Part shown: piece by piece, positions 13,229 to 33,256 of the stretch | How positions within the stretch are numbered: position 1 is the stretch's first letter | How the letters are laid out: each line of letters opens with the position of its first letter | Assembly: GCA_001799485.1 (NCBI GenBank) | Contig: MGTO01000021.1 | Span: 1-37,642, forward strand | Source: Desulfuromonadales bacterium GWC2_61_20 | Lineage (GTDB): Bacteria; Desulfobacterota; Desulfuromonadia; Desulfuromonadales; UBA2197 | Length of the DNA: 37,642 nucleotides | Direction: 5' to 3' | Notes under the pieces: generated by a model | Databases searched by the model: none | What the model saw: the letters and a program-made list of their open reading frames with translations, nothing else | Told to the model about the DNA's origin: nothing | Translations under genes and position numbers: made by a program

Positions 13229-13267
13229 CAGCGCCGCCCGCAACTGCTATTCAATCAGGGAGATGTC

Positions 13268-16200: not shown

Positions 16201-16324
16201 AGAGATGCAGGGTTTCTACTTCAGCCGGCCCCTGCCGGAGGAAGAATTTTTGACGTTGCTCCGTTCGGGCAAATGCCTCGAAATACCCCAGAGCGCCGTC
16301 GTGCCAGGGCAAAAGGAATCGTGA
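13268..16324 (+). CDS. REC-PAS-GAF-PAS-GGDEF-EAL c-di-GMP protein
   Basis: The protein has 1018 residues: receiver (acceptor D57 in VILSDYSLP), PAS (about 150-265), GAF (about 275-435), PAS (about 450-580), GGDEF (about 585-745) and EAL (about 755-1000). The cyclase signature GGDEF is intact at 655-659, with an RxxD product-inhibition site at 646-649. The phosphodiesterase motif EALL is at 783-786 and DDFGTG at 904-909, so both catalytic domains look competent; which one dominates cannot be told. No membrane segment is present. AGGGAG five bases upstream supports the start. Its place after a receiver-only regulator suggests that kinase signals here feed into cyclic di-GMP. Confidence 0.92.
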   Translation: MDYRLRFLLVEDTPTDAELVQREVRKSYPNAEFLLVDTRPDFLAALDSFRPDVILSDYSLPEFDGMTALQLARERLPDIPFILVTGSINEETAVACMHAGAWNYILKDHLRRLCPAIENSLEQCLRIAEHHRTDRELAKNEERLRLALRAANQGLFDIDLESGEMVVSPEYALMLGYDPFTFHNSMALTRERMHPDDVESAQRAYDEYVGGQRDEYRVEYRQRTKDGDWIWVLSRGKIVARATDGTPRRMLGILANVSERKKNEAELIQLNRTLRVLSLCNETLVRATSEAELLDNICRNLVEVGGYQLAWVGFVGETSPLIVPAGQVGSDLGVLGCLREHLLDCDNPCPTARAVSQHRPVLEKRTNGPDHPHLRHLGETLGVRAIIALPLVNAGNVFGALTIYSRDIDAFDPEEIRLLGELTDDLAFGISGLRNQAARQSAEAALKLYQLAIEASSNGILIADAAADISDPPLLHANPAFARMTGYSEVEARGQGLFFFVHNDDPLALRDLDASLRNKQTGMGLLHCRRKNGEFFWCEMAISPLRNAQGRLTHFVAVLTDVTEHKRYEEELEHQATHDALTGLANRNLLIDRMGQSTVFADRSQRVVAVLLLDLDRFKVINDSLGHLAGDELLLHVAQRLTAHVRAGDTVARLGGDEFVVTLAEVADAADVVMVTKKLMAIFNAAFSVAGRDLHIHPSIGISLYPKDGTDPGSLLRCADIAMYQAKNEGGNAFRFFAPEMNLRVTETLELESELRKAVANAALKIFYQPKVDLVTGRICGAEALLRWPHASRGMISPMAFIPLAEETGLILPIGKWVIDSVCAAIKAWQKAGLPEVSVAVNLSARQFNEQDLEATVRQALANNRLDPCWLELELTESMLMRKPEAAIKTMQQLKTIGVSLSLDDFGTGFSSLNYLRRFPVDILKIDRSFITDVATDSSAAAVATSIIAIAHTLGMRSIAEGVENIDQLQFLCEHGCEEMQGFYFSRPLPEEEFLTLLRSGKCLEIPQSAVVPGQKES

Positions 16325-16334
16325 GCAAGGCCCT

Positions 16335-17732
16335 ATGCCGAACATTCTGAAGGAAATCACCCTCCTCCTGGTCGAGGACGAGGCGCTGCTGCGCCGGGCC
16401 ACCGTCGACTTTCTCTCCGGTTACTGTGGCCGCGTCGTCTTTGCCGGCAACGGAAGCGAAGCGCTGGAAGTCTTTGCCCGCGAGAAACCCGACCTGGTTC
16501 TGACCGACATCATCATGCCGGAAATGGACGGCATCGCTCTCACCGAACGCCTGCACGAGCTCAGCCCCGAAACCCCCGTCGTCTTCTTTAGCGCCTTTTC
16601 CGATGTCCCTTACCTGCTGCGCGGCATCGAGCTCGGCGTCGCCGGCTTCATCCCCAAGCCAGCAGCGGACACACAGCTTCTCGCCGTCCTCGAAAAGGCC
16701 GCCCTGCCGGTCCTCCAGCGCAAGCAGCTGACGGGGCTCGAGAGAGAGCTGCTGCACTCGGTAGAATTGCGTCTCGGCAAGAGCCCCAGGATGAAGGAGA
16801 TTGCGGCGCAGGTGACACGCCTCGCCCGCACCGACTACTCCCTCCTCATCCAGGGCGAGACCGGCACCGGCAAGTCGCGCCTCGCCGCCCTCATTCACGA
16901 CCTCAGCCCGCGCGCGGAAAAACCTTTTGTCTCGGTGCAACTCAGCACCCTGCCGGAATCTCTTGTTGCCTCCAACCTCTTCGGTCACGAAAAAGGCGCC
17001 TTCACCGGCGCCGAACAGAAACGCGAAGGGCTGGTCGCCGCCGCGCGGGGCGGGACCCTCTTCATTGACGACATCGACGCCGCGTCCCCGATGGTGCAGG
17101 CCCTCCTCTTGCAACTGGTCGACGAAAAGAGTTTTACCCCCCTCGGCAGCAATCGCCAGCAAAAGGCCGAGGTGCGGATCATCGCCGCCAGCAACAGCGA
17201 TCTTGCCACGGCTTCGGCCACCGGCCAGTTTCGCCAGGACCTCTATTACCGCCTCGCCGGACTGGTCATCGAATTACCACCGCTGCGCACCATCTCCGAA
17301 GAAATTCCCCAACTGGCGACGACATTCCTGCGCGAGGTGGCCCAGGGCCTGCACTGCAAGGCGCCCCTTATCACCGCCGAGGCCATGGCCCTGCTGCGCG
17401 CCCATCCCTGGCCGGGCAACATTCGCGAACTGCAGAATGTCCTCAAGCGGGCAACGATTCTGGTGACCGATGAAATCGACGCCGGACTCATCCATGACAC
17501 CCTTGGCCACGCAGAAAACGGCAATGGCGCCTCCGCCGCCTCGCCGGCGCCGGCAAACCCGGCGGCCGAGGCCCTCCCCCTGACCATGGCGGCGGTGGAA
17601 GAATGGGCGCTGAAGCGGGCACTGGCGGCGGCCGAGGGAAAAAAAATGCTCGCCGCCCGTCTCCTCGACTTGAACTACTACACCTTCCGCCGCCGCCTGG
17701 CGCGTTACGGTTTGGACGGTGGCGAGGACTGA
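16335..17732 (+). CDS. Sigma-54-dependent response regulator (NtrC family)
   Basis: The protein has 465 residues: receiver (acceptor D58 in LVLTDIIMPEMDG, lysine in FIPKP), AAA+ sigma-54 activator domain and a C-terminal Fis-type helix-turn-helix (about 425-460). Walker A is GETGTGKS (from residue 174), the sigma-54 contact loop is an intact GAFTGA (221-226), and Walker B is FIDDID. It should bind upstream of -24/-12 promoters and drive open-complex formation when phosphorylated. It starts ten bases after the preceding gene. A good sigma-54 promoter lies 128 bases downstream of its stop, ahead of the surface-protein cluster, which is its likely target by position. Confidence 0.92.
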   Translation: MPNILKEITLLLVEDEALLRRATVDFLSGYCGRVVFAGNGSEALEVFAREKPDLVLTDIIMPEMDGIALTERLHELSPETPVVFFSAFSDVPYLLRGIELGVAGFIPKPAADTQLLAVLEKAALPVLQRKQLTGLERELLHSVELRLGKSPRMKEIAAQVTRLARTDYSLLIQGETGTGKSRLAALIHDLSPRAEKPFVSVQLSTLPESLVASNLFGHEKGAFTGAEQKREGLVAAARGGTLFIDDIDAASPMVQALLLQLVDEKSFTPLGSNRQQKAEVRIIAASNSDLATASATGQFRQDLYYRLAGLVIELPPLRTISEEIPQLATTFLREVAQGLHCKAPLITAEAMALLRAHPWPGNIRELQNVLKRATILVTDEIDAGLIHDTLGHAENGNGASAASPAPANPAAEALPLTMAAVEEWALKRALAAAEGKKMLAARLLDLNYYTFRRRLARYGLDGGED

Positions 17733-17860: not shown

Positions 17861-17876
17861 TGGCACAACTTCTGCT
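17861..17876 (+). promoter_or_regulatory. Candidate sigma-54 (-24/-12) promoter
   Basis: TGGCACAACTTCTGCT fits the -24/-12 consensus: GG at 17862-17863 and GC at 17874-17875 are separated by exactly 10 bases, and only the first T of the TTGC element differs. Transcription would start near 17887 and run into the gene at 18074 and possibly the exported-protein cluster. It lies directly behind the gene for a sigma-54 activator. Confidence 0.6.
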
Positions 17877-18073: not shown

Positions 18074-18430
18074 ATGGAAAACAAGAATTACATACCACCT
18101 TACAGCGCCGGGTCGACAGCCGCCCCTGCCGACCCGGCCATTATCGTTCTCGAGACGATGGCCCGACTGCGGGTTCTGGAGTGCCTGCTGCAGCGTGCCG
18201 TCGTTGCCGAAATCGCGACAGGCGAACACCGCGCTCTTCTGATCCGCTACAACCGGCAACGCCAGGAAATCTTCGACCGGCTCGATGGGACACCGGCGCG
18301 CATGTTGCCGACTCCGGCGCAACTGCAAGAGTTGCTGGTCGGACCGCTGGCGCCGGACAGCGCGGGCCCAGCCCTCGCCAGCGCCATTGTCAACGTCCGC
18401 CGGATGATGGAGCTGCTGACGATCGACTGA
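18074..18430 (+). CDS. Small protein of unknown function
   Basis: The protein has 118 residues and I do not recognise it. It has no signal peptide, membrane segment or cysteine pair of note apart from one mid-protein Cys; the N-terminal ~25 residues are Pro/Ala/Tyr-rich and the rest is predicted helical, with a basic stretch around RYNRQRQEIFDR. The start is chosen at 18074 because GGAGG (18064-18068) lies five bases upstream; the frame is open back to an ATG at 17963, but that would run through the inverted repeat. It is the first gene after the candidate sigma-54 promoter. Confidence 0.6.
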   Translation: MENKNYIPPYSAGSTAAPADPAIIVLETMARLRVLECLLQRAVVAEIATGEHRALLIRYNRQRQEIFDRLDGTPARMLPTPAQLQELLVGPLAPDSAGPALASAIVNVRRMMELLTID

Positions 18431-18561: not shown

Positions 18562-21500
18562 ATGCCGACAATATCCACAACATTGTCCCTGATTCGCATC
18601 CGCGTTCCGATCGTCGCGACGCTTCTGCTTGCCCTCGGTCTCGCCGCACCGGCCCAGGCCTTGATTCTCGATCAGCCGATGACCGGGGCAACGGCGCCGG
18701 GCTGGGTCATTGGCGGCGCCGCCTACCTCACCGCCAGCACCGGCGCCGACACCCCCGGCAACGGCTGGCTGCGCCTGACCGAACCATTTAACGACCAGTC
18801 CGGGTTTGCCATGTACGACAGCGCCTTCGACATCTCGCAAGGGGTTGTCATCCAGTTCGACTATGCCACCTGGGGGGGGACCGGTGCCGACGGTTACAGC
18901 ATCTACCTCTTTGATGGCGCCTATAATGCGGCGACCTTCCAGGTCGGCGCCTCCGGCGGCTCTCTCGGCTACGACAAGAAGACCGTCGCCCCCGTGGCGC
19001 CCGGCGTCACCGGCGGCTACATCGGCGTCGGCATCGACGAATACGGCAATTTTTCCAACCCGACGGAAGGTCGGCTCGGCGGTCCGGGACTCCGGCAAAA
19101 TTCGGTGGCGGTGCGCGGTCCCTTCGACCATCCGAGTGGCGCCTACTACTACATCGGCGGCACCGCCGCCAACGTCGGCACCCTCTGGTTCAATCAGGCC
19201 TTCCGCCCCGGCCAGTTAGGTACCCAATACCGCAAGGTCGTCATCTACCTGACCCCGGTGTCTGCACCCGAGTACATGCGGGTCGACGTCTTCATGCAGT
19301 TCGGCTACAACCAGCCGCTGACCTACCTGATCAACACCCTCTACACCATGCGACCGATCCCGAGTACGGTCAAAGTCGGCTATGCCGCCAGCACCGGCGG
19401 CTCGACCAATTACCACGAGATCAGGAATCTGGCCATCGACAACTTGCCGACGGACATCAACCTGGCCATCGCCAAGAGCGCCTCGGCCCCCATCGTCGCC
19501 CCCGGCGGGGCGCTGACCTACACCGTCACCGCCCGCAACTACGGGCCGAACCTGGTCACCATCGCCAACAACGTGCCGATCGTCGACACCCTGCCGGCAG
19601 AGCTGACCGGCGCCACCTGGACCTGCGCCGGTTCCGGCGGCGGCAACTGCGATGCCGCCTCGGGAAGCGGCAACCTCAACACCACCGCCGACTTGCCCTT
19701 CAACGGCGCCGCCACCTACACCATCACCGGCACCGTCGCCGGCGCCCTCGGCACGGTCTTCACCAACACCGCTACCCTTTCGGCTCCGGCCGGAATCACC
19801 GATTACAACCCGGCCGACGACAGCGCCAGCGTCGCCACCACCATCAGCAACGGCAACATCACCATCTCCGGCACCGTCTACAACGACAGCGGCGCCGGCG
19901 GTGGCATTGCCCACAACGGCGTGCGCGACGGCACCGAGGGGGGAGTCAACGTCGGCTTGACCTACTACGCCAAGCTCTTCCGCCCCACCGACTTGACCAC
20001 AACAGTCGTCGCGCCGGTGACGGTCAACGCCGCCACTGGCATCTACACCATGAACAACGTCCCGGGCTACGGCGACTACGTCGTCATCCTCAGCTCGACC
20101 AACACCGCCAACGTCTACGATCCGAGCTTCCCGAGCGCCAACTGGATCTATGTCGCCCCCCTCAACTACACCCTGACCGGGCTGGTCGCCAACGGCGTCA
20201 ACTTGACCAATCAGAACTTCTTCGTCTACAACGGCAGCCGCATCAGCGGCAAGGTGATCAAGGACGACGGCTTCAACGGCAGCATCAGCACCGCCTACGA
20301 CGGCATCCTCAACGCTGCCGAAACCGGTATCGCCGGGGTAACGGTCCGTCTCGCCAACAACACCGGCGGTACCACCTACGACACCACAACCACCGATAGT
20401 AACGGCACTTTCGTCCTCTTCACCAATACCGCCAGCGCCAATCTGCGCATCTACGAGACCAATCTCCCCGCTTACACCTCGGTGAGCTGGAACGACGGCA
20501 GCACCAACGGCGCCTACACCATCGGCGGCGAATACATTCAATTCGCCTATACCCTTTATACCGACTATGTCAACGTCCTTTTCGGTGATATTCCGCCGCC
20601 AGTCACCATCTCCTTTACTCCGACCCCGCAGAGCGCCAGCGGCACCCCGGCGGCACCGGTCTATCTCCCCCACACCTTCACTTCCACCGCCCGCGGCAGC
20701 GTCAGCTTCGCCATGAACAACCGCACTCAGGGAACTTGGCCGGCCGTCTCCTTCGTCCGCGACCTCGACTGCGACGGCAACTTCGATGTGGGCGAACCGG
20801 ACATAATCGCCGCCATCAACATCGAGACGGCGGAGAACCTCTGCATCCTGGTACGCGAGACGATCCCGGCCGGAGCGACGCCGGGGACAACGGATGCGAT
20901 CACGACGCGGGCGACCTTCACCTACGGTCTGGCAACCCTGACGGCCGATGTCGTCGACACCACCACCGTCGCCAACTACCCCGCCGTGTCCGCGACCAAA
21001 ACCTGGATCGACACCAATAACGGCGACCATGACCCCGGGGACACGATCCGCTACACCATCACTCTGACCGAGACCAACAACAGCGCCGCCAGCAATGTTT
21101 CGGTCACCGACACCATCAATGCCAACTACGACACCTTTACCATCGTCAGCATTCCGTCGGGCGCCGTCGACAGTTCCACCCCCGGTTCCGGCCCCCTCGA
21201 TGTCACCAACATCAGTATCCCGGCCGGAGGCTCGGTCAGCATCGTCTACACCGTCAAGATCGTGACCGGCACGTCCGCGGGAACTTCGATTCCCAACACC
21301 GCCAATTTCGTCAACCCCGGCGGGATGTCCAACGGCACTGCGGTCGCAACCAACGTTATCGTCTCGGCCTCATCGATACCCGGCAGCGGCAACAAACAAC
21401 TGTATCTTCATGACGCCACCTCGACCCCGGCCTACAAACTTTCACGTACACCGATGACGGTCAATGCCGCCAACTACGTCGCCATTTTGCGCGGACCCAC

Positions 21501-22668
21501 CACCCGTGCCTGGGTTCTGAGTCCGGCATTGGCATCGCCGGTGACGATAGACAACGGCATCATCCCGGTGCGCCTCTGGCTGGCCAGCAATACTACCCGC
21601 ACCTACACCATCCCGGTCGAGCTTTACTGCGGCGCGACCAGGGTCGCCTTTCTGAACACGGGCACAGCCGCGCTGGTCGCCGGAGCCCTGGCGGCACCAT
21701 TCAACTTCAACCTCCCCCTGGGCGCCGATTACACCTGTCCGACCGGCAGCGCCTGGGAACTCAGAGTCACCAACAGTGAAGGGGGCACGGGTACCGCGCG
21801 CCAGGTTCGAGTTTTTCCGGCGCCGTCGGCCAATAATTATTCCAACGTTTCGCTATCGTCGCAGAACGTCATCAACGTCGACAGCGTCATCCCCTACAGT
21901 GCCCCCTATAACGACATGACCTCGCCGGCCAGTTATGCCGCCGGCAGCACCGTCCACCTGCGCGCCGTGGTCAGCGATCCCTTCGGCAGCGACGACATCA
22001 ACGTCAACAACGACGCAACGACCCTGCCGCGCATCACCATCACCGACCGCGACGGCAACGCCACTACCGTCACCAACCTCGCCATGACCGAGGTCAACAA
22101 CTCAGGGGCAGCGACCAAGACCTTCGAATTCGACTATGCCATCCCGGGCGGAGGCCTGGCCGGTTACTGGACCGCCAGCGTTACCGCACCGGAAGGGACG
22201 GAAGGGACCGTCGCCGACACCGGCGTCGGCACCTTCCTCGTCACTGTCCCGGCCCCGAACCTGACTGTCGTCAAGTACATGACGAGCGACCCCACCACCC
22301 CCTACAACATCCCCGGCGGCCTGGTGACCTACACCATCGACGTCACCAACTCGGGGGACGGCGCTACCGATGACGATTCGGTCATCATCATCGATCCGAT
22401 CCCAACCAACACGGCGCTGATCGTGACTCCTCCGGCAGTGACCTACAACCCGGTGGTCGCAAACGGCTTGACCTTCACCTACGCCAGCGACGTCACCTTT
22501 TCTCAATTCACGACCGGACTCGATTTCACCTATGTGCCGACGGCCGATGCCAACGGTACCGATGTCAATGTCAAGCGTCTGCGCATCAACCCGCAAGGGC
22601 CATTGAACGGGGCGGCCAGCGCCCCCTACCCGCGCTTCACCGTCAGTTTCAAGATACGGATTAATTAG
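18562..22668 (+). CDS. Large exported protein with lectin-like and DUF11/SdrD-B-like repeats
   Basis: The protein has 1368 residues. A signal peptide (about 1-34, ending APAQA) is followed by a domain that looks like an L-type lectin jelly roll (about 35-290; GADGYSIYLFDG segment). A DUF11 repeat follows (about 299-425, with GGALTYTVTARNYGPN), then two SdrD-B/Cna-B-like units (about 432-552 and 557-675; ISGTVYNDSG and ISGKVIKDDG), another DUF11 (about 807-935), an unassigned region, and a final DUF11-like repeat (about 1233-1368). There is no LPXTG or obvious membrane anchor. Composition is rich in Thr, Asn, Ala and Gly, typical of surface adhesins. No clear ribosome site precedes the ATG. 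Confidence 0.8.
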   Translation: MPTISTTLSLIRIRVPIVATLLLALGLAAPAQALILDQPMTGATAPGWVIGGAAYLTASTGADTPGNGWLRLTEPFNDQSGFAMYDSAFDISQGVVIQFDYATWGGTGADGYSIYLFDGAYNAATFQVGASGGSLGYDKKTVAPVAPGVTGGYIGVGIDEYGNFSNPTEGRLGGPGLRQNSVAVRGPFDHPSGAYYYIGGTAANVGTLWFNQAFRPGQLGTQYRKVVIYLTPVSAPEYMRVDVFMQFGYNQPLTYLINTLYTMRPIPSTVKVGYAASTGGSTNYHEIRNLAIDNLPTDINLAIAKSASAPIVAPGGALTYTVTARNYGPNLVTIANNVPIVDTLPAELTGATWTCAGSGGGNCDAASGSGNLNTTADLPFNGAATYTITGTVAGALGTVFTNTATLSAPAGITDYNPADDSASVATTISNGNITISGTVYNDSGAGGGIAHNGVRDGTEGGVNVGLTYYAKLFRPTDLTTTVVAPVTVNAATGIYTMNNVPGYGDYVVILSSTNTANVYDPSFPSANWIYVAPLNYTLTGLVANGVNLTNQNFFVYNGSRISGKVIKDDGFNGSISTAYDGILNAAETGIAGVTVRLANNTGGTTYDTTTTDSNGTFVLFTNTASANLRIYETNLPAYTSVSWNDGSTNGAYTIGGEYIQFAYTLYTDYVNVLFGDIPPPVTISFTPTPQSASGTPAAPVYLPHTFTSTARGSVSFAMNNRTQGTWPAVSFVRDLDCDGNFDVGEPDIIAAINIETAENLCILVRETIPAGATPGTTDAITTRATFTYGLATLTADVVDTTTVANYPAVSATKTWIDTNNGDHDPGDTIRYTITLTETNNSAASNVSVTDTINANYDTFTIVSIPSGAVDSSTPGSGPLDVTNISIPAGGSVSIVYTVKIVTGTSAGTSIPNTANFVNPGGMSNGTAVATNVIVSASSIPGSGNKQLYLHDATSTPAYKLSRTPMTVNAANYVAILRGPTTRAWVLSPALASPVTIDNGIIPVRLWLASNTTRTYTIPVELYCGATRVAFLNTGTAALVAGALAAPFNFNLPLGADYTCPTGSAWELRVTNSEGGTGTARQVRVFPAPSANNYSNVSLSSQNVINVDSVIPYSAPYNDMTSPASYAAGSTVHLRAVVSDPFGSDDINVNNDATTLPRITITDRDGNATTVTNLAMTEVNNSGAATKTFEFDYAIPGGGLAGYWTASVTAPEGTEGTVADTGVGTFLVTVPAPNLTVVKYMTSDPTTPYNIPGGLVTYTIDVTNSGDGATDDDSVIIIDPIPTNTALIVTPPAVTYNPVVANGLTFTYASDVTFSQFTTGLDFTYVPTADANGTDVNVKRLRINPQGPLNGAASAPYPRFTVSFKIRIN

Positions 22669-22708
22669 CCGTTGCAAGGTCCACCACCCTCAGAAAGGGG
22701 ATAACACC

Positions 22709-23698
22709 ATGAAGAAGAGAAACATCCTCCTCCCGCTCCTGGCCGGCCTGGCCCTCGCCTTGCCGGCCCAGGTCCTCGCCCTCGGCACGCCGGCGGAGAC
22801 CGCCATCGTCAACACGGCGAGCATCAGTTATGACATCGGCGTCACCCCGGTGACCCAGACCAGTAATACGGTCACCATCACCGTCGGCGAGATTCTCGAT
22901 GTGACCCTGACCTGGCTGGACGTCCCCAACGTCCTGGTCAAACCGGGGGATGTGGGGCAGATGCTGACCTTTCAGCTGTCCAACACCGGCAACTACAGTG
23001 AAATCTTCAATCTCAGCCTCAACAATACCGTCGGTGGCGACCAGTTCGATCCCATCGCCCCGACGACAATCTATCTCGACAGCAACGGCAACAACACTTA
23101 CGACGCCGGAGTCGATACCCTTCACGTCGCCGGGACCAACGATCCGACCCTGACCGCCGACGGTGCCATCACCCTCTTTGTCTTCAACGCCATCCCCGGC
23201 GATCCCGGCGGGCCTCTCGATGGCGACACCGCCATCAGCCGCCTCTCCGCCACCGCCGCCACCGGCAGCGGCGCTCCCGGCAGCGCCTTCCCCGGCGCCG
23301 GCGGCAGCGGCACCGTCGCCGCCGTGGTCGGCCTCAGCGGCGGCAGCGCCACGGACGACGGCATCTACGAAGTCAGCCGCTTCGACTTGGTCATCACCAA
23401 GTCGGCCGTCATCAACGATACCTTTGGCGGCAACGAGCCTCTTCCCGGCGCGACCATCAGCTACACCATCGACGTCGTCGTCACCGGTACCGGGAGTGGC
23501 ACCAACCTGGCCATTACCGACACCATCGACGCCGACGTTGTCTATGCCGCCGGCACCCTCGCCCTCGACACCGTGCCCCTGAGCGACACCCCGCTCAACG
23601 ATGCCGGGGAAGTCGTGGCCGGGGTCGTCACCGTGCGCCTCGGCAATGTGACCGCACCGGCCACTCATGCCGTCACCTTTGACGTCACCATCCCGTAA
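22709..23698 (+). CDS. Exported DUF11-domain protein
   Basis: The protein has 329 residues, with a signal peptide of about 26 residues. The mature N-terminus (NTASISYDIGVTPVTQTSN) belongs to a module also found at the start of the proteins at 24365 and 25449. A DUF11-like beta-sandwich occupies about 225-329. GAAAGGGG before the ATG supports the start, 40 bases after the previous stop. It is Gly/Ala/Asn/Thr-rich with no cysteines visible in the mature part. It is presumably a periplasmic or surface subunit working with the large outer-membrane protein downstream. Confidence 0.78.
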   Translation: MKKRNILLPLLAGLALALPAQVLALGTPAETAIVNTASISYDIGVTPVTQTSNTVTITVGEILDVTLTWLDVPNVLVKPGDVGQMLTFQLSNTGNYSEIFNLSLNNTVGGDQFDPIAPTTIYLDSNGNNTYDAGVDTLHVAGTNDPTLTADGAITLFVFNAIPGDPGGPLDGDTAISRLSATAATGSGAPGSAFPGAGGSGTVAAVVGLSGGSATDDGIYEVSRFDLVITKSAVINDTFGGNEPLPGATISYTIDVVVTGTGSGTNLAITDTIDADVVYAAGTLALDTVPLSDTPLNDAGEVVAGVVTVRLGNVTAPATHAVTFDVTIP

Positions 23699-23712
23699 AG
23701 GAGAAGAGAGTC

Positions 23713-24207
23713 ATGTTACTCATTGTTTTCCACCGCAGCCTCCTCGCCCTCCTGGTCGCCCTGGCCGTGAGCACCGCCGCCTTCGCCGCCGACCCGGTCA
23801 CCCTGACCACCGTCGGACTGGTCGAGGTCGAGACCCTGAACGCCAAGGGGGAGAAGGAGATCGCCCGCGTTCCGGCGGGGAAACTCATCCCCGGCATGAC
23901 GGCGATCTTCGTCAATACCGCCGTCAACAACGGCAGCACCGCCACCGACAACGTCGCCGTCAATAACCCCATCCCCGAGCACACGACCTATGTCGACGGT
24001 TCGGCCAAGGGGGAAGGAGTCGCCATCGTCTTCTCCGTCGACGGGGGCAAGAGCTATAACCAGCCGGCGCAGCTCAAGGTCAAGGGCGCCGACGGCAAAC
24101 TGCGTCCCGCCGCGGCCGCCGATTACACCCATATCCGCTGGCAACTACAGAAACCGCTGCCGCCCAAAGGGACGGTCACAGTCGAATACAGTGCCAAGGT
24201 CAAGTAA
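23713..24207 (+). CDS. Small exported protein with single DUF11-like fold
   Basis: The protein has 164 residues, with a signal peptide (about 1-25, ending AAFA). The mature part is one beta-sandwich of the DUF11 kind: PGMTAIFVNTAVNNGSTATD then VAVNNPIPEHTTYVDGSAKG, and an ending (GTVTVEYSAKVK) typical of the last strand of these repeats. GGAGAAGAGAG lies just before the ATG. It begins 14 bases after the previous gene, which points to one transcript. It is likely periplasmic or surface-exposed. Confidence 0.75.
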   Translation: MLLIVFHRSLLALLVALAVSTAAFAADPVTLTTVGLVEVETLNAKGEKEIARVPAGKLIPGMTAIFVNTAVNNGSTATDNVAVNNPIPEHTTYVDGSAKGEGVAIVFSVDGGKSYNQPAQLKVKGADGKLRPAAAADYTHIRWQLQKPLPPKGTVTVEYSAKVK

Positions 24208-24364
24208 CCATTTTTTCGTCTGCAATGTATTGCCTTCAACCCTTTAACCGTACGGCAATGAGGAGTCCACCATGCAGAGATTCGATCCGTCGCACATCCC
24301 CCGGTTAACATCGTCAACGACCCTTAACCCCATAGCCCTCCCACCAACGAAAGGAGCACCAACA

Positions 24365-25414
24365 ATGAAACGCATGTTACGCACCACCCTGGCGACCTTT
24401 GCGGCCGCCGCCCTGGTCCTGACCGCCGGTCAGGCCTTCGCCGCCGGCACCGAAGCCGGTCAGTCGATCTCCAATACCGCCAGTGTCGACTACACCATCG
24501 GCGGGACCCCGACAACAACCCCGAGTAATCCCACCTCTTTCCTCGTCGATCGCATGATCAATCCGGTCGTCGTCTACACCGGCGCCGCCACCGTGACCGT
24601 CGTCGCCGGCGCGACCAACTATGTCCTTCCCTTCACCATTCAGAATCTGAGCAACACCCCGTTGGCGACCAACGAATATTTCAACCTTACCACCAGTGAA
24701 GTGACCGCCAACATCATGCAGAACGTCGAAATTTACCGCGACGTCAATGGGGACGGCTTGCTTGACGGCGGCGATACCCTGGTCCTCGCCCCGGTTCTTC
24801 TCGTGCGCGACGCCGCTCCTCTGGAGTATTTGATCGTCGCCGACGTTCTCGCCGCCGGCGGAGCCCCGGACACCGCGACCCCGGGCCTCACCGCCCCCTA
24901 CGACCTGGTTGCCACCGCCTGGGCCGGCGCATTGGTCGGTGACGGCGCCCTGGCCGCCGACGGTGACGGCAATGATGCGGCCGCCTCCGAAATCGTCTTC
25001 GCCGACGCGCAGGGGACTGCTTCAGTCGAAGTCGCCGCTCCTGACGGTATCCACTCGGCCCGCGGCACCTACATCACCGCCGCCACCCTTGGTGTCGCCA
25101 AGTCCGTCAGCAACGGCGTCTCGGGCTACCAGATTCCCGGCGATGTTGTCACCTACACCATCGCGGTGACCAATTCCGACTCCGTCAATGCTGCCACCGC
25201 CGTCACCATCAGCGACGCCATCCCCGGGTTCACGCTGTACTCCCTCGGGACCCTGACTTGCACCGGCGCCGGCTTCACCGCCGAATACGATCACGGCGCC
25301 GGTTTTTCCACCACCGAGGCACCCGCCAATACGGTCACAGCGGTACGTTGTTCCGGCGGCAGCATCGCCGCCAGTGGCAACGCCAGCATGGCCTTTGGCG
25401 CGGCGATTCAATAA
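24365..25414 (+). CDS. Exported DUF11-domain protein
   Basis: The protein has 349 residues. A signal peptide (about 1-23, ending QAFA) precedes the shared N-terminal module (SISNTASVDYTIGGTPTTT); a DUF11 repeat lies at about 243-349 (IPGDVVTYTIAVTNSDSVN). It looks like a paralogue of the protein at 22709-23698 in layout. The start at 24365 is preferred because AAGGAG (24351-24356) is eight bases upstream and the signal peptide begins there. An in-frame ATG at 24272, also with a GAGGAG, would add 31 polar residues before the signal. Confidence 0.78.
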   Translation: MKRMLRTTLATFAAAALVLTAGQAFAAGTEAGQSISNTASVDYTIGGTPTTTPSNPTSFLVDRMINPVVVYTGAATVTVVAGATNYVLPFTIQNLSNTPLATNEYFNLTTSEVTANIMQNVEIYRDVNGDGLLDGGDTLVLAPVLLVRDAAPLEYLIVADVLAAGGAPDTATPGLTAPYDLVATAWAGALVGDGALAADGDGNDAAASEIVFADAQGTASVEVAAPDGIHSARGTYITAATLGVAKSVSNGVSGYQIPGDVVTYTIAVTNSDSVNAATAVTISDAIPGFTLYSLGTLTCTGAGFTAEYDHGAGFSTTEAPANTVTAVRCSGGSIAASGNASMAFGAAIQ

Positions 25415-25448
25415 CCCCTAACCAGACCCGCGGACGAAACGCATAACC

Positions 25449-28400
25449 ATGCAGAGACACCTCCTCACCCGATCGGCCCTGGGGCCGCTGACCGCTTCCG
25501 GCACCATTGCCGGCAAGAGGGAGGGGTGTCTTTTATCCGCAGGGTCTGTTGCCAACCACAGTCAGGCGGACCGCCCGTTGCGGCGGTCCGCCCGTCTGCC
25601 GCAGATGATGACCACCCTCGGTCGCCATTTGCGGCAGGCGATGTGGAGTCTTCTCCTCTCCTGCTCTCTGGCAACGGTCGCCTTTGCCGCCACAGCACCG
25701 GGAACGTTCATCGACAACACTGCCCGTATCGATTATGACGTCGTCGGCAGCCCGGTGAGCCGCCTGTCGAACCTGGTGCGCATCATCACTGTTGTCAACC
25801 GCACCCCCTCGACCCTCGACTTCTTGCGCTACGCCCCGACCACCCCCGGTGCCGTCCCGACCATGGTGCGCCCCACCGATGGCGGCACTCCCCTGGCGCC
25901 CCTGCCCGATCCGACCGCCCTCGGCGGCGGCGCCATCGCCACCGGCGTCAATCAGCCGCTGATTCCGGCCACGACCTATCATGTCGGCGAGCCCTTCTTC
26001 CTGCAACTGACCGACCTCGACCAGAACGTTAATGCCGCCGTCATCGAGACAATTCTCCTCACCGTCTCCTCGCCCGAGAGCGGCGACAGCGAAGTCATCC
26101 GCCTCTACGAAACCGGCGTCAACACCGGCATTTTTGTCGGCTACCTGGCCAGCACCGCCGGCGCCGCCACCCCCAACAACGGCATCCTCTCCAGCGCCGT
26201 CGGCGGCAACGTCAACGCTCAGTATGTCGATGCCTTCGACGGCAGTGACAGCAACTTCGACGCCGCCCTCATCGACCCCTTCGGGCGGGTTTTCGACAGC
26301 CGCACCGGCGCGGCGATCGACGGCGCCGTCGTCACCCTCATCGACACCACCACCGGTTTGCCGGCCACGGTCTTTGCCGACGATGGGATCAGCCCCTTCC
26401 CTTCGACCGTCACCAGCGGCGACAGTAGCTTACTCTTCCCCGCCGGCGGCTTCCGTTTCCCCTTCGTCGCCCCCGGCAGCTACCGCCTCGACATCGTTAC
26501 GCCGGTCGGCTACAGCGCTCCTTCCGTCGTCGCGACCAGCGTACTGCAAGCCCTCCCTGGCGCCCCTTTTGCCGTTGTCGGTGGTTCGCGCGGCGAGATC
26601 TTTGTCGTTAACCCCGGCCCCAACCTCGAAATCGACATCCCCCTCGACCGCCCCGCCACCGCCCTCTGGCTGCAGAAGAGTTCGGCCAAGGTCATCGGCG
26701 GCATCGGCGATTTCATCCCTTACGATCTCGTTGTCGAGAACGGCAACCCCACCCTGGTCGCCCCGTCGGTAACAGTGGTCGACCGTCTCCCCGCCGGCTT
26801 TCGCTACCGCCCCGGCACCACCCGCGTCGACGGCGTTGTCGCCGCCGACCCAACCGTCGCGCCCGATGGCCGCACCCTGACCTTCGCCCTCGGCGACCTC
26901 GCCGCCCTGGCCTCGCGCCGTATCGGCTACGTCGCCACGGTCGGGGCCAATGTCCGCCCCGGACTGGCGATCAACACAGCGACGGCGACCGATCTCGCCG
27001 GCGGCGTTTCCAACAGCGCCAGCGCCACCATCGCCATCCGCGAAGAGCTCATCCACCGCCGCTCCTTCCTCGCCGGCCGCGTCATTATCGGCCCCTGCGC
27101 CGAAGACGAGAAGCAGCTCGAAGGTCTGAAAGGGGTGCGCATCTTCCTCGAAGACGGCACCTACGCCGTCACCGACGAGGATGGACGCTACCACTTCGAG
27201 GGACTATCCCCCGAGCGCCATGTCGTCCAGCTCGACGTCGATTCGATCCCGGCGATGTACGAGATGCTCCCCTGCGACGACAACACCCGCTTCGCCGGAC
27301 GCAACTTTTCCCAGTTTGTCGATATCCAGCCCGGCACCTTGTGGCGCGCCGATTTCCACGTCGGTCTGCGCCCCCGCGCCAGCGGTGACGTCACCCTCGA
27401 ACTTAACGGCAGCATTAGCAACGACGAGGCGACTTTTGCTCTTCCCCTGGCCATCGGCGGTGTCGATTTAAGCAACCTGCGCCTCACCGTCATCTTCCCC
27501 GAAGGGTTGACCTATCTGCCGGGAACCAGCACCCTTGACGGTGCCGCCATCGCCGACCCGGGCGCAGCAGGGCAGACCGTGACCTACCGCCTCGGCGACC
27601 AGCCGGCCGGCTGGATGGGGGATGTCCGCCTGAACGCCCGCGCCAGCGGCGAGCGCAACGGCGAAGTCGTCACCCGCGCCATCCTCACCTTCGATGCATT
27701 CGAGAAGAAGAACCAACGCACCCCCATGGTCGAGAATGTGCTGCTGGTGACATCAACGGAGAGCCAGGAGACGATCCCGTCCTTCACCGTGCGGCCGCGC
27801 TTCCCCTCCTTTATCGCCGAGCTCTCCGCCGCCGATCGCATCACCCTCGACCAGATCGCAGTCGAACTCGCGCCCTACCACATCACCCGTCTCGTCGCCA
27901 CCGGCCACACCGACAACATGCCCATATCGACCCGCGGCCGGACGATCTTTGCCGATAACTTCATCCTCGCCAAGGCCCGGGCCAAGGCTGTCGCCGACTA
28001 CCTCGGCGCCGTCCTTAAACTGACGCCGGAGCAGCTTGAAACCGTCGGCCGCGCCGATGCCGAGCCGATTGCCGACAACAGCAGCGAGGACGGGCGCGCC
28101 CGCAACCGCCGGGTCGAGGTCAAGGTCGAGGGGGGGAGAATCAACCGCACCATCGACCTCGAACTGCTCAAGGACAAGAGCGGCCCGGCCCGCAGCGAAA
28201 CCCTCGGTCTGCGCCCTGGCGAAAAACCGGCGGTCGCTGAAGAATTGACCGCCGTCGATCCCGACGCCATGCCTGAATTCGATGCCGTCTGGCTCGAACA
28301 AGCCGCCCCCGGTGTCGAATGGCTGTGGCCGCGCCCCGGCAAGGTCCCGGCCATCCCCAGCATCAAGGTCGCCATCAAGCACCTCCCCGAACAAACCCCG

Positions 28401-31358
28401 ACTCTCTTCCTCGACGGTCAGCCGGTGAGTTCCCTGGCCTATGACGGCACCGTACGCAATGCCGCCGGAACCTTTATCGTCACCCTCTGGCGCGGCGTCG
28501 GCATCGCCCGCGGTGACAACAATTTCGAGGTTGTGTTGAAGGATACCGCCGGCAACGAAATCCGCCGTCTGAGCCAGGTCGTCCATCACTCCTTCGCCCC
28601 GGTCCGCGCTGAACTGGTGGAGAAAGAATCCGTGCTGGTCGCCGATGGTGTGACGCCGCCGGTCCTCGCCGTGCAGCTCCTCGACAAGGACGGTTACCCC
28701 GCCTGCGAAGGGGTTCTCGGCGAGATGCAGGTCGCCCCGCCCCACCGCCCGTGGATTGCCGACGACAGCGAAACCGATTCGCTGGCCCGGAAAAACACCA
28801 AATTCCGCGTCGGCGCCGACGGCATCGCCCGCATCGCCCTCGAACCGACAACCCGGTCCGGCGACGCCATCCTCAGCCTCGCCCTCGACGAGGGGAGCAG
28901 CGAGATCCGCGCCTGGCTGCAACCGCAGGCGCGCGAGTGGATCCTCGTCGGCCTCGCCGAAGGGACCGCCGGCTACAACACCGCCTCGGGAAACATGGAA
29001 GCCCTGACCGAGCAGGATCAGGATGAGGACTTCTATAGCGACGGTCGCCTCGCCTTCTTCGCCAAGGGGAGGATCAAGGGCTCGTGGCTTTTGACCATGG
29101 CCTATGACAGTGACAAGCCGCGCCAGGAAAGTCTGTATCAGACCATCGACCCCGACAGCTACTACACCCTTTACGGTGACGGCACCACCCAGCAGTACGA
29201 AGCCAGCAGCGCCCGCAAGCTCTACGTCAAGCTTGAGCGCGGCCAGTTCTATGCCCTCTTTGGCGATTACGACAGCGGCCTCACCATCACCGAACTCTCC
29301 CGCTACAGCCGCAGCCTCAACGGCTTCAAGTCCGAATACCGCAACCGCCGCGGCGGCTGGAACGTCTTTGCCGCCGACAGCCATCAGGCTTTCGTCAAGG
29401 ACGAGATCCCCGGCGACGGCACCTCGGGACTCTACCGCCTGACTCGCAGCAACATCGTCCTCAACTCGGAAAAGATCGTCATCGAGACGCGGGATCGCTT
29501 CCACAGCGACGTCGTCCTGACCACGCGGATCTTGAGCCGGCACCTCGACTACAACATCGACTACGCCCTCGGCACCCTCTACTTCAAGGAGCCGATCTTC
29601 ACCCGCGACAGCAGCTTCAATCCCAACATCATCGTCGTCGACTACGAAGCTGCGGATAGCGGCGACAACAGCATGACCTACGGCGGTCGCGGCATGGTCA
29701 AGCCTTTCGGCGAAACTCTCGAACTCGGCGCCAGCGCCATCCACGAAGGGACGACCGGGGCCGAAGGAAATCTGTACGGCGCCGACGTGACGGTAAAGTT
29801 CGACCCGCGCACCACCCTCAAGGGGGAGTACGCCACCAGCAAGGTTGACACCCTCGCCGGCGACGGCAAGGGGAGTGCCTGGCTCGCCGAATTGACCCAT
29901 CAGGGTTCGGCCCTGAACTCGCGCGCCTACATGCGCGAAGAGGAACCGGGCTTCGGTCTCGGCCAGCAGGCGGCGAGCGAAGCGGGGATGCGCAAGGCCG
30001 GCGTCGATGCCGCCTACCGGGTGACCCCGCAGGTCACCGTCAACGGCGCCCTGGCCCGGCAAACTAACCTGACCACCGACGCCGAAGGGGATCTGGCCGA
30101 AGCCGCCATCGAATATCAGGACAAGAGCTACAATCTGCGCAGCGGCCTGCGTCAGGCGGTCGATCGCTTCAGCGACGGAACTCGTAACGAGTCGACCCAG
30201 GCTCTCTTTGGCGCCGGCTGGCAGGCGAACTCGCGGCTCGCCTTCCGTCTCAACCACGACCAGTCTCTCGGCAGCAGCGACGGCGCCGCCGACTATCCGA
30301 CCCGCACCCTCCTCGGCGCCGACTATCGCCTGAGCGAGGCGGTGACCCTCTTCGGCGAGCAGGAATGGACCAAAGGCGCCGCCGAGGATAGCGAAGGGAC
30401 CCGCCTCGGCCTGAAAACGACCCCGTGGAGCGGTGCCCAGGCCAACTCCTCCGTCGAACAGCAGATCAGCGAAGCCGGCACCCGCGTCTTCGCCAACCTC
30501 GGACTCAAGCAGACCTGGCAGCTGAGCAAGCGCTTGAGCCTCGACGCCGGCCTCGACCGCAGTCAGACCTTGCGCCATCCCGGCAATACCCGGGTCAACC
30601 CCGATGCGCCCATGGTCTCCGGCAGCACCAGCGACTACACCGCCGTCACCGCCGGAGCCAACTGGACCGAAGAAAAGTGGTCGTGGTTCAACCGGGCCGA
30701 GTACCGCACCTCGGATAGCGATGACAAATGGGGGATCGCCGCCGGGGCCATGGGCGAAGTCAGTCGCGGGGTCGGGCTCTCGGCTTCAGCCCAGTTCTTT
30801 TACACCGACGCCGCCGCCGGGACCGAGTCGACCAACGTCAACCTCCGCCTCGGCTACGCCTGGCGTCCGCGCGCCAGCCGCTGGATCATCTTCGACCGTC
30901 TCGACTTCCTTAACGACCGCCAGAGCGGCTTGCTGACCGACTTCGACAGCTGGCGGATCATCAACAACCTGCACGCCAACCTCAAGGCTTCGCGCCGCAC
31001 CCAGATCGCCCTGCAGTACGCCTGCAAATATGTGCAGGAATCGATTGCCAACCAGGAATTCAGCGGCTACACCGACCTCATGGGGATCGAGACCCGCTAC
31101 GATGTCAGCAAAAACTGGGATGTCGGCCTGCGCGGCAGCGTCCTCCACGCCTGGGAACTCGGACATTTCGATTACAGCAGCGGCGTCTCCGTCGGCTACA
31201 AGGTCATGACCAATGCCTGGCTCTCCGTCGGCTACAACTTCACCGGTTTCGCGGACAAGGATTTCTCCGCCGCCGATTACACCGCCCAGGGCCCCTTCGT
31301 CCGCTTCCGCTTCAAGTTCGACCAGAACAGCATCAAGGAAGCCCTCGCCCGCTTCTGA
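25449..31358 (+). CDS. Giant outer-membrane protein: DUF11, Cna-B-like, OmpA domain, beta barrel
   Basis: The protein has up to 1969 residues. The signal peptide appears to begin at the MMTTLGRHLRQ segment (ATG at 25605), so the first 52 codons may be leader sequence. The mature N-terminus repeats the NTARIDYDVVGSPVSRLSN module of its neighbours. Then follow DUF11 (about 405-530), a Cna-B-like carboxypeptidase-regulatory fold (about 538-620), an OmpA/MotB peptidoglycan-binding domain (about 797-892; TGHTDNMP, ARNRRVEV) and a long strand-rich region (about 1190-1969) that ends in phenylalanine, as barrel proteins do for BAM recognition. It is likely the outer-membrane anchor or exporter for the smaller DUF11 proteins upstream. 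Confidence 0.82.
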   Translation: MQRHLLTRSALGPLTASGTIAGKREGCLLSAGSVANHSQADRPLRRSARLPQMMTTLGRHLRQAMWSLLLSCSLATVAFAATAPGTFIDNTARIDYDVVGSPVSRLSNLVRIITVVNRTPSTLDFLRYAPTTPGAVPTMVRPTDGGTPLAPLPDPTALGGGAIATGVNQPLIPATTYHVGEPFFLQLTDLDQNVNAAVIETILLTVSSPESGDSEVIRLYETGVNTGIFVGYLASTAGAATPNNGILSSAVGGNVNAQYVDAFDGSDSNFDAALIDPFGRVFDSRTGAAIDGAVVTLIDTTTGLPATVFADDGISPFPSTVTSGDSSLLFPAGGFRFPFVAPGSYRLDIVTPVGYSAPSVVATSVLQALPGAPFAVVGGSRGEIFVVNPGPNLEIDIPLDRPATALWLQKSSAKVIGGIGDFIPYDLVVENGNPTLVAPSVTVVDRLPAGFRYRPGTTRVDGVVAADPTVAPDGRTLTFALGDLAALASRRIGYVATVGANVRPGLAINTATATDLAGGVSNSASATIAIREELIHRRSFLAGRVIIGPCAEDEKQLEGLKGVRIFLEDGTYAVTDEDGRYHFEGLSPERHVVQLDVDSIPAMYEMLPCDDNTRFAGRNFSQFVDIQPGTLWRADFHVGLRPRASGDVTLELNGSISNDEATFALPLAIGGVDLSNLRLTVIFPEGLTYLPGTSTLDGAAIADPGAAGQTVTYRLGDQPAGWMGDVRLNARASGERNGEVVTRAILTFDAFEKKNQRTPMVENVLLVTSTESQETIPSFTVRPRFPSFIAELSAADRITLDQIAVELAPYHITRLVATGHTDNMPISTRGRTIFADNFILAKARAKAVADYLGAVLKLTPEQLETVGRADAEPIADNSSEDGRARNRRVEVKVEGGRINRTIDLELLKDKSGPARSETLGLRPGEKPAVAEELTAVDPDAMPEFDAVWLEQAAPGVEWLWPRPGKVPAIPSIKVAIKHLPEQTPTLFLDGQPVSSLAYDGTVRNAAGTFIVTLWRGVGIARGDNNFEVVLKDTAGNEIRRLSQVVHHSFAPVRAELVEKESVLVADGVTPPVLAVQLLDKDGYPACEGVLGEMQVAPPHRPWIADDSETDSLARKNTKFRVGADGIARIALEPTTRSGDAILSLALDEGSSEIRAWLQPQAREWILVGLAEGTAGYNTASGNMEALTEQDQDEDFYSDGRLAFFAKGRIKGSWLLTMAYDSDKPRQESLYQTIDPDSYYTLYGDGTTQQYEASSARKLYVKLERGQFYALFGDYDSGLTITELSRYSRSLNGFKSEYRNRRGGWNVFAADSHQAFVKDEIPGDGTSGLYRLTRSNIVLNSEKIVIETRDRFHSDVVLTTRILSRHLDYNIDYALGTLYFKEPIFTRDSSFNPNIIVVDYEAADSGDNSMTYGGRGMVKPFGETLELGASAIHEGTTGAEGNLYGADVTVKFDPRTTLKGEYATSKVDTLAGDGKGSAWLAELTHQGSALNSRAYMREEEPGFGLGQQAASEAGMRKAGVDAAYRVTPQVTVNGALARQTNLTTDAEGDLAEAAIEYQDKSYNLRSGLRQAVDRFSDGTRNESTQALFGAGWQANSRLAFRLNHDQSLGSSDGAADYPTRTLLGADYRLSEAVTLFGEQEWTKGAAEDSEGTRLGLKTTPWSGAQANSSVEQQISEAGTRVFANLGLKQTWQLSKRLSLDAGLDRSQTLRHPGNTRVNPDAPMVSGSTSDYTAVTAGANWTEEKWSWFNRAEYRTSDSDDKWGIAAGAMGEVSRGVGLSASAQFFYTDAAAGTESTNVNLRLGYAWRPRASRWIIFDRLDFLNDRQSGLLTDFDSWRIINNLHANLKASRRTQIALQYACKYVQESIANQEFSGYTDLMGIETRYDVSKNWDVGLRGSVLHAWELGHFDYSSGVSVGYKVMTNAWLSVGYNFTGFADKDFSAADYTAQGPFVRFRFKFDQNSIKEALARF
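25565..25592 (+). other. Strong GC hairpin ahead of the internal start
   Basis: GGCGGACCGCC (25565-25575) and GGCGGTCCGCC (25582-25592) are perfect 11-bp reverse complements separated by six bases. The hairpin lies 12 bases before the ATG at 25605, where the signal peptide starts. If that ATG is the real start, this structure is in the 5' leader and could limit translation. No T-run follows, so it is not a typical terminator. Confidence 0.4.
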
Positions 31359-31397: not shown

Positions 31398-32228
31398 ATG
31401 ATCCGTCTGCTTGTCAGCGCCGACGACTTCGGCAGCGGCCCCGGCCGCAATCGCGGCATTATCGAGGCCTTCCTGCACGGCATCGTCACCGGCGCCTCCC
31501 TCCTCGCCAACGGTCCGGCCTTCGCCGATGCCGTCGCTCTCGCCCGCGCGCACGCCCTCCCCGTCGGCGTCCATCTCAACCTCTCCGAGGGGAGGGCCGT
31601 GAGCGGGCCGATTGCCGGCATCACCGATGGAAGCGGGCACTTTGCCGGCAAGGGGGAACTGCGCCAACGCCTCCTCGCCGGTGACTTCGATGCCGCCGCC
31701 GTGGCGACGGAGCTGAGAGCCCAGATCGCCCGCATCCGCGCCGCCGGGCTCGACCCCGACCATCTCGACACCCACCAGCACTGCCTCCTCTTCCCCGCCC
31801 TGACCGCCATCGTCGCCGCCGTCGCCAAGAGCAGCGGCATCAAGACCCTGCGCCTCCCCCTCCCGCTGGAGCCGGCCGCGGCCGACCCGGACGGTCCCCT
31901 GGGCGCCGAACTGGCGCTCTACCGCGCTCTCGCGCCGGCTTGCGCCGCGACCTTGCATGCCGCCGGCTGCGTCACCCCCGACGGTCTCTGCGGCATGCCC
32001 CTTCTCGACCGCCTGGAGGAAGAGCACCTTTTGCGCACCCTGACCGACCTCCCGGCCGGGACCTGGGAACTCATGACCCACCCCGGCCACGTCGATCGCG
32101 GACACCCCTTTTCCGGCCCTGAGCGGGTCACCGAACTTGCCGCCCTCACCGCCCCCGCCGTGCACGCGGAGATCGTCCGGCGCGGCATCGCCCTCGTCTC
32201 CTTTTGCGAGCTGCCATGCGCGTCCTGA
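31398..32228 (+). CDS. ChbG/HpnK (YdjC) family carbohydrate deacetylase
   Basis: The protein has 276 residues. The N-terminal LVSADDFGSGPGRNRGI carries the metal-binding DD pair, GVHLNLSEG carries the conserved HLN segment, and DHLDTHQH gives the second metal-ligand cluster; this set is typical of YdjC-type metal-dependent deacetylases acting on acetylated sugars, including ChbG (chitooligosaccharides) and HpnK (hopanoid-linked). No hopanoid genes are in view, so the substrate is open. No clear ribosome site is seen. It overlaps the downstream glycosyltransferase by 13 bases, suggesting that the two act on one glycan or glycolipid. Confidence 0.85.
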   Translation: MIRLLVSADDFGSGPGRNRGIIEAFLHGIVTGASLLANGPAFADAVALARAHALPVGVHLNLSEGRAVSGPIAGITDGSGHFAGKGELRQRLLAGDFDAAAVATELRAQIARIRAAGLDPDHLDTHQHCLLFPALTAIVAAVAKSSGIKTLRLPLPLEPAAADPDGPLGAELALYRALAPACAATLHAAGCVTPDGLCGMPLLDRLEEEHLLRTLTDLPAGTWELMTHPGHVDRGHPFSGPERVTELAALTAPAVHAEIVRRGIALVSFCELPCAS

Positions 32229-33256
32229 TCGTCATCCCCAGGCAACCGGCGGCCACCGGCAACCGGGTCACCGCCGAACGCCAGAAGCGCGGTCTCGCGG
32301 CCCTCGGGCACAAGGTCGCCCTGGTCGAAGTCGAGGTCGGGCAAACCCGGGTCCTGGCCGTCGCCCTCGCCGCCTTCCGCCCCGACGCGGCGCTCCTCCT
32401 CCACGCCTGGCGCTCGGGCGAACCGTGGCTGCAGGTCAAGAAGAGCGCGGCGATCCCCTGCGTCGTTTGCCTCACCGGCACCGATCTGCACGAAGATCTC
32501 GTCGCTCCCGAACGCGCCCCTATAGTGCAGACGGTCCTTGCCCGCGCCGCCGCCATCGTCACCCAGAACCCCTTCACCACCACCGACTTGCGCCGCGCGG
32601 GGGCGGAGTGGACCGAGCGCCTCCATTACCTTCCTCCCGCCGTCGTTCTCGGCGACGAGCCTTATCCCTTGCGCGAGATCCTCGGCGTCGATGCCGAGAC
32701 CCTCGTCCTGCTGCACCCCGCCGGCATCCGTCCGGTCAAGGGGAACCGCGAGCTCCTCACCCTCCTCGGCCCGGTGGCTAAGGCATACGACAACTTTGTC
32801 GTCGCCTTCTGCGGCCCCGATCTCGATCCCGACTACGCCGCCGAGTTCCACACCGCCCTGCGTTCCCGCCCCTGGGCCCGCGCCCTCGGCGTCATCCCCC
32901 ATGCGGCCATGGCCGCCGCCCTGCGCGCGGCCGACCTCGTCCTCAACAACTCGGCCAGCGAAGGCCTCCCCAACGCCCTCCTCGAAGCCGCCGTCCTCGG
33001 CCGGCCGATGCTGGTGCGTAACATCCCCGGCAACGCCGCCGTCGTCAGCGACGACGTCAACGGCCACCTCTACGACGATGCCGCCACCTTCCGCCGCCAC
33101 CTCGGCGCCCTCCTCGACGACCCGGCCCTGCGCCGACGGCTCGCCGTCCCCGACCCCGAGCGCTACCGCCCCGAACACGAAGCCCATGAGTTGGAGTCGC
33201 TGCTGCGCACGGTCTGCGACAAAAAGCACACCGGGCTCGTGCCCGGTCCAGCATGA
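32216..33256 (+). CDS. GT4-family glycosyltransferase (SenB-like N-terminus)
   Basis: The protein has 346 residues. It starts MRVLIVIPRQPAATGNRVTA and has LTGTDLHEDL in the first Rossmann half; the second half has LHPAGIRPVKGN, and the nucleotide-sugar-binding NNSASEGLPNALLEAAVLG of GT-B retaining family 4 enzymes. The first half recalls SenB, the selenosugar synthase of selenoneine biosynthesis, but no senA, senC or selD gene is visible, so a general sugar transferase is just as possible. The ATG at 32216 is used; a TTG at 32204 would add four residues. It overlaps the deacetylase gene upstream. Confidence 0.8.
   Translation: MRVLIVIPRQPAATGNRVTAERQKRGLAALGHKVALVEVEVGQTRVLAVALAAFRPDAALLLHAWRSGEPWLQVKKSAAIPCVVCLTGTDLHEDLVAPERAPIVQTVLARAAAIVTQNPFTTTDLRRAGAEWTERLHYLPPAVVLGDEPYPLREILGVDAETLVLLHPAGIRPVKGNRELLTLLGPVAKAYDNFVVAFCGPDLDPDYAAEFHTALRSRPWARALGVIPHAAMAAALRAADLVLNNSASEGLPNALLEAAVLGRPMLVRNIPGNAAVVSDDVNGHLYDDAATFRRHLGALLDDPALRRRLAVPDPERYRPEHEAHELESLLRTVCDKKHTGLVPGPA

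Follow-up and report, generated by a model that had tools for sequence, protein, structure and literature searches.

A candidate surface fibre with split DUF11/CLIPPER domains encoded in Desulfuromonadales and other Gram-negative bacteria

Gene set, surroundings and conservation of the locus

The window, i.e., the whole stretch of DNA that was analysed, comprises positions 1–37,642 of the forward strand of contig MGTO01000021.1 from Desulfuromonadales bacterium GWC2_61_20 (assembly GCA_001799485.1). Five consecutive open reading frames, here called A to E, occupy positions 18562–31358 on the + strand, to which all coordinates below refer unless noted, and all of them have signal-peptide-like N-termini. 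Gene A (18562–22668; 1368 aa) encodes an L-type-lectin-like head, a stalk of DUF11, SdrD_B and MG2 domains, and a truncated DUF11 domain at the C-terminus. The products of genes B (22709–23698; 329 aa) and D (24272–25414; 380 aa as the longest reading frame, with a probable start at 24365) share one layout, an N-terminal module (donor), a middle domain, which is Ig-like in B, and a C-terminal truncated domain (acceptor), while gene C (23713–24207; 164 aa) encodes an exported single acceptor-like domain without a donor. The largest product, that of gene E (25449–31358; 1969 aa as the longest reading frame, with a probable start at 25605), is composed of a donor, carboxypeptidase-regulatory-like domains, an intact DUF11 domain, an OmpA domain, an Ig-like domain, and a predicted giant beta-barrel, in that order. 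DUF11/B_ant_repeat matches were found in all five proteins with Pfam and/or NCBIfam, several of them under the curated cut-off: with the Pfam DUF11 model (PF01345) A and E scored over the cut-off and C and D just under it, and with the NCBIfam repeat model D scored over the cut-off and B just under it. Thus, the preliminary description of five exported proteins with common repeats at these positions was borne out.

The same description took E for an anchor or exporter with a peptidoglycan-binding domain and a predicted barrel, and both parts received support. The domain of the OmpA peptidoglycan-binding type (27810–28109; residues 788–887) matched PF00691 over the cut-off (E 6e-13) and has solved relatives by sequence. 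In an AF2 model of residues 900–1969 (54 sequences; mean pLDDT 77.5, pTM 0.67), an Ig-like domain precedes a run of long strands, at least 30 in succession, which places the barrel, predicted with moderate confidence, at about residues 1202–1969 (29052–31355). Foldseek matched the barrel to Deinococcus SlpA (E 6e-9), the type 9 translocon SprA and LptD with E values below 1e-5 and TM scores of about 0.2; the C-terminal part of E is therefore likely a large outer-membrane barrel, with no specific relationship to SlpA, SprA or LptD implied. As the OmpA domain precedes the barrel, the donor of E may lie in the periplasm. The lectin-like head proposed for A fared less clearly: a match to PF18483 was found (E 4e-7), but at 30 bits it stayed below the curated cut-off of 78, and orthologs of A bear other heads, such as choice-of-anchor L. 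Attachment to glycans through this head, as well as export through the barrel of E, would fit these domains.

Upstream of the operon, a sigma-54-type -24/-12 site, TGGCAC-N6-TGC, lies at 17861–17875. Shuffling the window as a whole 100 times yielded at least one such match in 34 cases, but similar sites recur at several orthologous loci, about 315–465 bases before A. The sigma-54-dependent response regulator encoded at 16335–17732, which adjoins the operon in several Desulfuromonadales, is likely its regulator. A 118-aa reading frame (18074–18430), helical by eye, separates this regulator from A; in some relatives its place is taken by a reading frame of 165–184 aa in which a similar R-L-R-V motif occurs, although BLAST gave no match. 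The regulator gene closes a dense signalling cluster (130–17732) of histidine kinases, an NMT1-type binding protein, dCache, response regulator and GGDEF-EAL proteins, and the sigma-54 activator. Within it, a 1411-aa reading frame (8372–12607) fuses a copper-type P-type ATPase (two HMA domains, CPC motif) with an ETR1_N-PAS-histidine kinase part, the ethylene-receptor-like N-terminal domain ETR1_N carrying CGTTH; ETR1_N was detected in only 2 of 134 genomes of the order. In plants, the copper transporter and the ethylene receptor are separate proteins. After the operon, a YdjC-like protein and a glycosyltransferase are encoded (31398–33256), a pair that adjoins the operon in L024 and L034 as well and possibly serves glycosylation, and a multihaem cytochrome c is encoded on the opposite strand (33933–34907, - strand).

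Orthologs of E, mostly 41–54% identical, were found in many families of the order, and a scan of named genomes recorded them in Desulfuromonadales (Geobacter, Geomonas), Desulfobacterota, Nitrospirota, Gammaproteobacteria, Zixibacteria and Krumholzibacteriia, many of the records being metagenome bins. In most loci with long enough contigs the genes follow the order A-(B)-C-D-E, with a second D-like gene replacing B in some lineages. Judged from these sequences, A to E appear to be an operon whose gene order is kept across several phyla; conservation of the genes together had been set beforehand as a check, and what was found is the opposite of genes that occur apart. Among the genome of the window and 57 relatives, C and E occurred together in 16, E alone in 2, C alone in none, and neither in 40, so that C was present in 16 of the 18 genomes with E versus 0 of the 40 without it (P = 2e-12, which is indicative at most, because the relatives are non-independent). 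In both genomes with E only, the contigs end near or within E.

Two other arrangements were noticed. In the related genomes L037–L040 a very large DUF11 protein adjoins an E-like barrel protein, the two being one fused reading frame in L038; with neither a donor nor a truncated end visible by eye, these two-gene systems were set aside. In a Deltaproteobacteria genome bin (L071, 16667–23043), a second, divergent set of C, B-like and E-like genes follows the first by a few kilobases.

Division of DUF11/CLIPPER domains between subunits

In a 2025 study, DUF11 was renamed CLIPPER and one domain was solved (9IFR) (PMC12617251). Isopeptide bonds between Lys and Asn form in DUF11 domains with the help of an Asp; in 9IFR the bond joins Lys715 to Asn806, with Asp748 close by, and a final strand 9 comes after the Asn strand (PMC12617251). 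The presence of the Lys-Asp-Asn triad within one domain is not universal in the DUF11/CLIPPER family. Our DUF11 profile matched 9IFR weakly (E 0.3, profile positions 3–100 to chain positions 7–106), and arithmetic on these alignment ranges would put residue 715 at the conserved Lys and residue 806 at the Asn of N-T-A. Designed armadillo repeats, which also appeared among the PDB matches of the profile, were rejected as spurious. A complete template is present in the window itself: the intact internal DUF11 domain of E (26658–27056; residues 404–536) has Lys410, Asp445 and Asn509 in cis.

Compared with this template, the C-termini of A to D are cut short. The terminal DUF11 domains of A (22255–22665) and D (25082–25411) are devoid of strands 8–9, that of B (23378–23695) consists of strands 1–7, and orthologs of A to D overwhelmingly end one residue past strand 7, in the form x-F-x-V-x-I. 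When only the E-internal model was used in local HMM searches, the matches to the C-termini ended raggedly, and profile-profile alignment replaced these searches. Aligned in this way to the intact domain of E, the C-termini of B, C and D (P = 1e-11, 4e-10 and 2e-9, respectively) stopped at model position 95–96 of 133, and the C-terminal domain of A aligned over its first half. The part missing from the terminal domains is the N-T-A strand and what comes after it. In an AF2 model of an ortholog of the D acceptor domain, 7 strands were confident, and Foldseek matched it to generic Ig-like folds.

A counterpart of the missing part was found at the other end of the proteins. Orthologs of B, D and E carry the module G-T-x-I-x-N-T-A-x-V-x-Y ... 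SN at a median of 13–16 residues past the signal-peptide core; in the window it occupies 22787–22885 in B (residues 27–59), 24449–24547 in D (residues 60–92) and 25692–25793 in E (residues 82–115). We derived a position matrix from other proteins (the stalks of A and the large proteins of L036–L040), using the N-T-A strands in their internal DUF11 repeats, and scored with it the N-terminal 150 aa of the orthologs, with A and C as built-in controls. The mean best scores were 10.8 bits for B, 9.1 for D, 9.3 for the second D-like protein and 10.0 for E, versus -2.3 for C and -0.6 for A. As the matrix finds the module in the former proteins but in neither A nor C, its sharing by B, D and E goes beyond chance, and the common N-terminal module that the preliminary description had pointed out is real. 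Profile-profile alignment of these modules by themselves gave no significant match, so that their identification with a DUF11 end rests on the matrix and on shared residues. By these, the module appears to be the end of a DUF11/CLIPPER domain, namely strand 8 and, by position, the 8–9 hairpin. The halves are distributed accordingly: A and C have an acceptor without a donor, B and D have both, and E, which has a donor, lacks a terminal acceptor.

The residues of the triad follow the same division. Lys and Asp are retained in the truncated domains, in the window as Lys1238 (22273–22275) and Asp1278 (22393–22395) in A, Lys231 (23399–23401) and Asp271 (23519–23521) in B, and Lys277 (25100–25102) and Asp315 (25214–25216) in D. 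Both were present in 36/36 sequences of B, 69/70 of D and the D-like protein, and 30/31 of A; the sole A exception was an unrelated reading frame gathered by position, and once it is left out the count for A is 30/30 and the total 135/136, at low overall identity. The C orthologs differ, with Lys in 4/58, Asp in 12/58, and Asn at the Asp position in 43, the C protein of the window having Glu40 and Asn85 at the two positions. In A, B and D, the terminal domain has no strand-8 Asn in cis; this residue is found on the donors, as Asn35 (22811–22813) in B, Asn68 (24473–24475) in D and Asn90 (25716–25718) in E, and it was present in at least 32/37 donors of B, 48/51 of D, 22/26 of the D-like protein and 63/75 of E. 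Several of the exceptions are mislocated motifs, and those in the B proteins of L025, L093, L094 and L066 look real. In 107 full internal domains, the Asn occurred in 97 of the 100 that have Lys and Asp versus 2 of the 7 that do not. The triad thus appears to be conserved in two portions, one at the C-terminus of one protein and the other at the N-terminus of another. Since it would be complete only when two such ends join, covalently locked joints are predicted. The docking or polymerising role suggested earlier for the module gains support from its match to the DUF11 part absent from the C-termini of A to D and from the triad Asn it carries; its probable identity as a DUF11/CLIPPER domain end, which goes beyond that suggestion, supplies a concrete mechanism of docking.

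Proposed assembly and alternative explanations

The presence of donors on B, D and E, and of ends lacking exactly that part on A to D, suggests donor-strand assembly between subunits. As A and C are acceptors without donors and E is a donor without a terminal acceptor, some pairing would have to occur in trans if these halves are used at all. We consider strand donation in trans likely and, once it is granted, covalent sealing of the joints hardly less so. That both hold together, i.e., that the operon encodes a surface fibre whose split isopeptide domains are joined through strand donation and sealed autocatalytically, is in our judgement reasonably probable. After removal of the signal peptide, B, D and E would start with a donor equivalent to the missing strands 8–9, and the N-terminal donor of one subunit would fill the C-terminal acceptor of the next. 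The Lys and Asp of the acceptor would then promote the formation of an isopeptide bond with the donor Asn, sealing the joint without a sortase. The parity of donors and acceptors would also give the fibre a direction: E, with its donor, OmpA domain and barrel, as the base and putative outer-membrane anchor, D and B, with a donor and an acceptor each, as the shaft (D as shaft or adaptor), and A, with an acceptor and a variable head, as the tip and putative adhesin. This is the simplest chain, and both the subunit order and the export route are putative. C, which is acceptor-like, would bind donors without a covalent bond; having neither a donor of its own nor the Lys and Asp, which are replaced, it is tentatively, and with some doubt, assigned the role of a cap or chaperone that holds donors non-covalently.

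One modelling result went the other way. AF2 was run on the D acceptor of an ortholog, linked to the donor of E through gene read-through, and the donor was left without a strand position (pLDDT about 56–72). The construct had the signal peptide of E in between and contained donor strand 8 only, omitting the likely second donor strand, and D need not be the natural partner of E; we nevertheless treat the run as a failed test and count it against strand donation.

The alternative that fares best retains strand donation, as in chaperone-usher polymerisation, but takes the joints as non-covalent, with Lys, Asp and Asn being inherited core residues that are unreactive between chains. The lack of Asn in some donors (e.g., in B of L025, L093 and L094) counts against sealing and is in line with this alternative, as is C, which complements donors, if at all, without Lys and Asp. 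Against it stand the retention of Lys and Asp in 135/136 of the truncated A, B and D domains at low overall identity, their loss in C, and the joint occurrence of Lys and Asp with Asn in intact domains, and we consider this alternative unlikely. Less probable still is that B and D, which have both halves in one chain and could close on themselves, are self-complemented monomers, i.e., circularly permuted DUF11 domains, and that the proteins surround E as a patch or coat instead of building a fibre: the donor and the acceptor lie at opposite ends of the middle domain in both proteins, and the unpaired halves of E on the one hand and of A and C on the other call for at least some pairing between chains if they are used. 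That the N-terminal motif is just the first strands of the next domain or a leftover of the fission of a tandem array, in a surface cluster without strand exchange, would agree with the same motif at domain borders within tandem DUF11 arrays and with the donor left unplaced by AF2, but is quite improbable given its presence in B, D and E and not in A or C, the uniform truncation of the C-termini, and the agreement of the donor residues with intact DUF11.

The sealed, strand-donating fibre can be carried one step further, to a hitherto undescribed kind of Gram-negative pili in which covalent polymerisation proceeds without a sortase via naturally split CLIPPER domains, the giant outer-membrane barrel forms the base and possibly also exports the subunits, and C, a dedicated acceptor devoid of the reactive residues, caps the donors up to the time of assembly. 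Taken with all these parts, the proposal is plausible, though somewhat less likely than not.

Comparison with known systems

In chaperone-usher pili (FimA/FimH, PapD/PapC), incomplete Ig-like subunits are completed by the N-terminal strand of a neighbour, the lectin-headed tip is an acceptor without a donor, and an outer-membrane barrel stands at the base. By its sequence anatomy the A–E system would resemble them in its proposed donor strands, putative lectin-like tip and predicted barrel base, but its subunits belong to DUF11, its joints are possibly covalent, and its base has an OmpA domain and a donor of its own. The genome, at 79% completeness, gave no match to the usher (PF00577), for which the E. 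coli control was positive; neither C nor E matched an usher or a pilus chaperone, and C gave only weak DUF11 matches (Pfam/NCBIfam). Sortase-dependent pili are covalently linked, adhesive, and contain Ig-like domains with isopeptide bonds. The A–E joints, in contrast, would be autocatalytic, and no sortase (PF04203) was matched in the same 79% complete genome. Filing the locus under chaperone-usher, sortase or S-layer systems (the last on a weak match to Kustd1514) was considered and not adopted.

Isopeptide domains split between two chains are known from engineering. In SpyTag/SpyCatcher, a Lys reacts with Asn/Asp between the two chains of such a domain, and DogTag is part of another tag/catcher pair made in the same way (PMC8878318). 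Unlike in these engineered pairs, the split in A to E is apparently natural and is repeated along the chain. In the archaeal thread (Saci_0406), donor-strand complementation is accompanied by a proposed intermolecular isopeptide bond from the N-terminal amino group of Asp24 to Asn57 two subunits away (PMC9715654). The thread differs from A to E in that it has a single major subunit and no outer-membrane anchor, and its bond is not a Lys-Asn bond in a split DUF11 domain. Fibrillar adhesins with CLIPPER/DUF11 domains (9IFR) share with A to E the family, the Lys-Asp-Asn triad and, in an OmpA-anchored Gram-negative adhesin, the anchor, but their domains are whole and the bond is intramolecular, within one long chain (PMC12617251). 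The DUF11 grappling hooks GhpA and GhlA likewise form a beads-on-a-string surface filament of DUF11 domains, which for A to E is a prediction, but they are single giant polypeptides that form oligomers and not short subunits with split ends (PMC13319060).

The open-access literature, with subscription papers and preprints largely outside the search, yielded no description of this set of DUF11 proteins. If the proposed assembly is true, it would represent a widespread class of fibres in environmental Gram-negatives (Geobacter relatives, Nitrospirota, Gammaproteobacteria) and would unite, within a single split domain, donor-strand assembly and a covalent seal that forms autocatalytically, a union of which we likewise found no description. 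It would also account for the function of a DUF11 operon with a giant barrel, and provide a source of natural tag/catcher pairs. Among the known systems, chaperone-usher pili and the archaeal thread are the closest in behaviour, and CLIPPER adhesins and DUF11 grappling hooks are the closest in parts.
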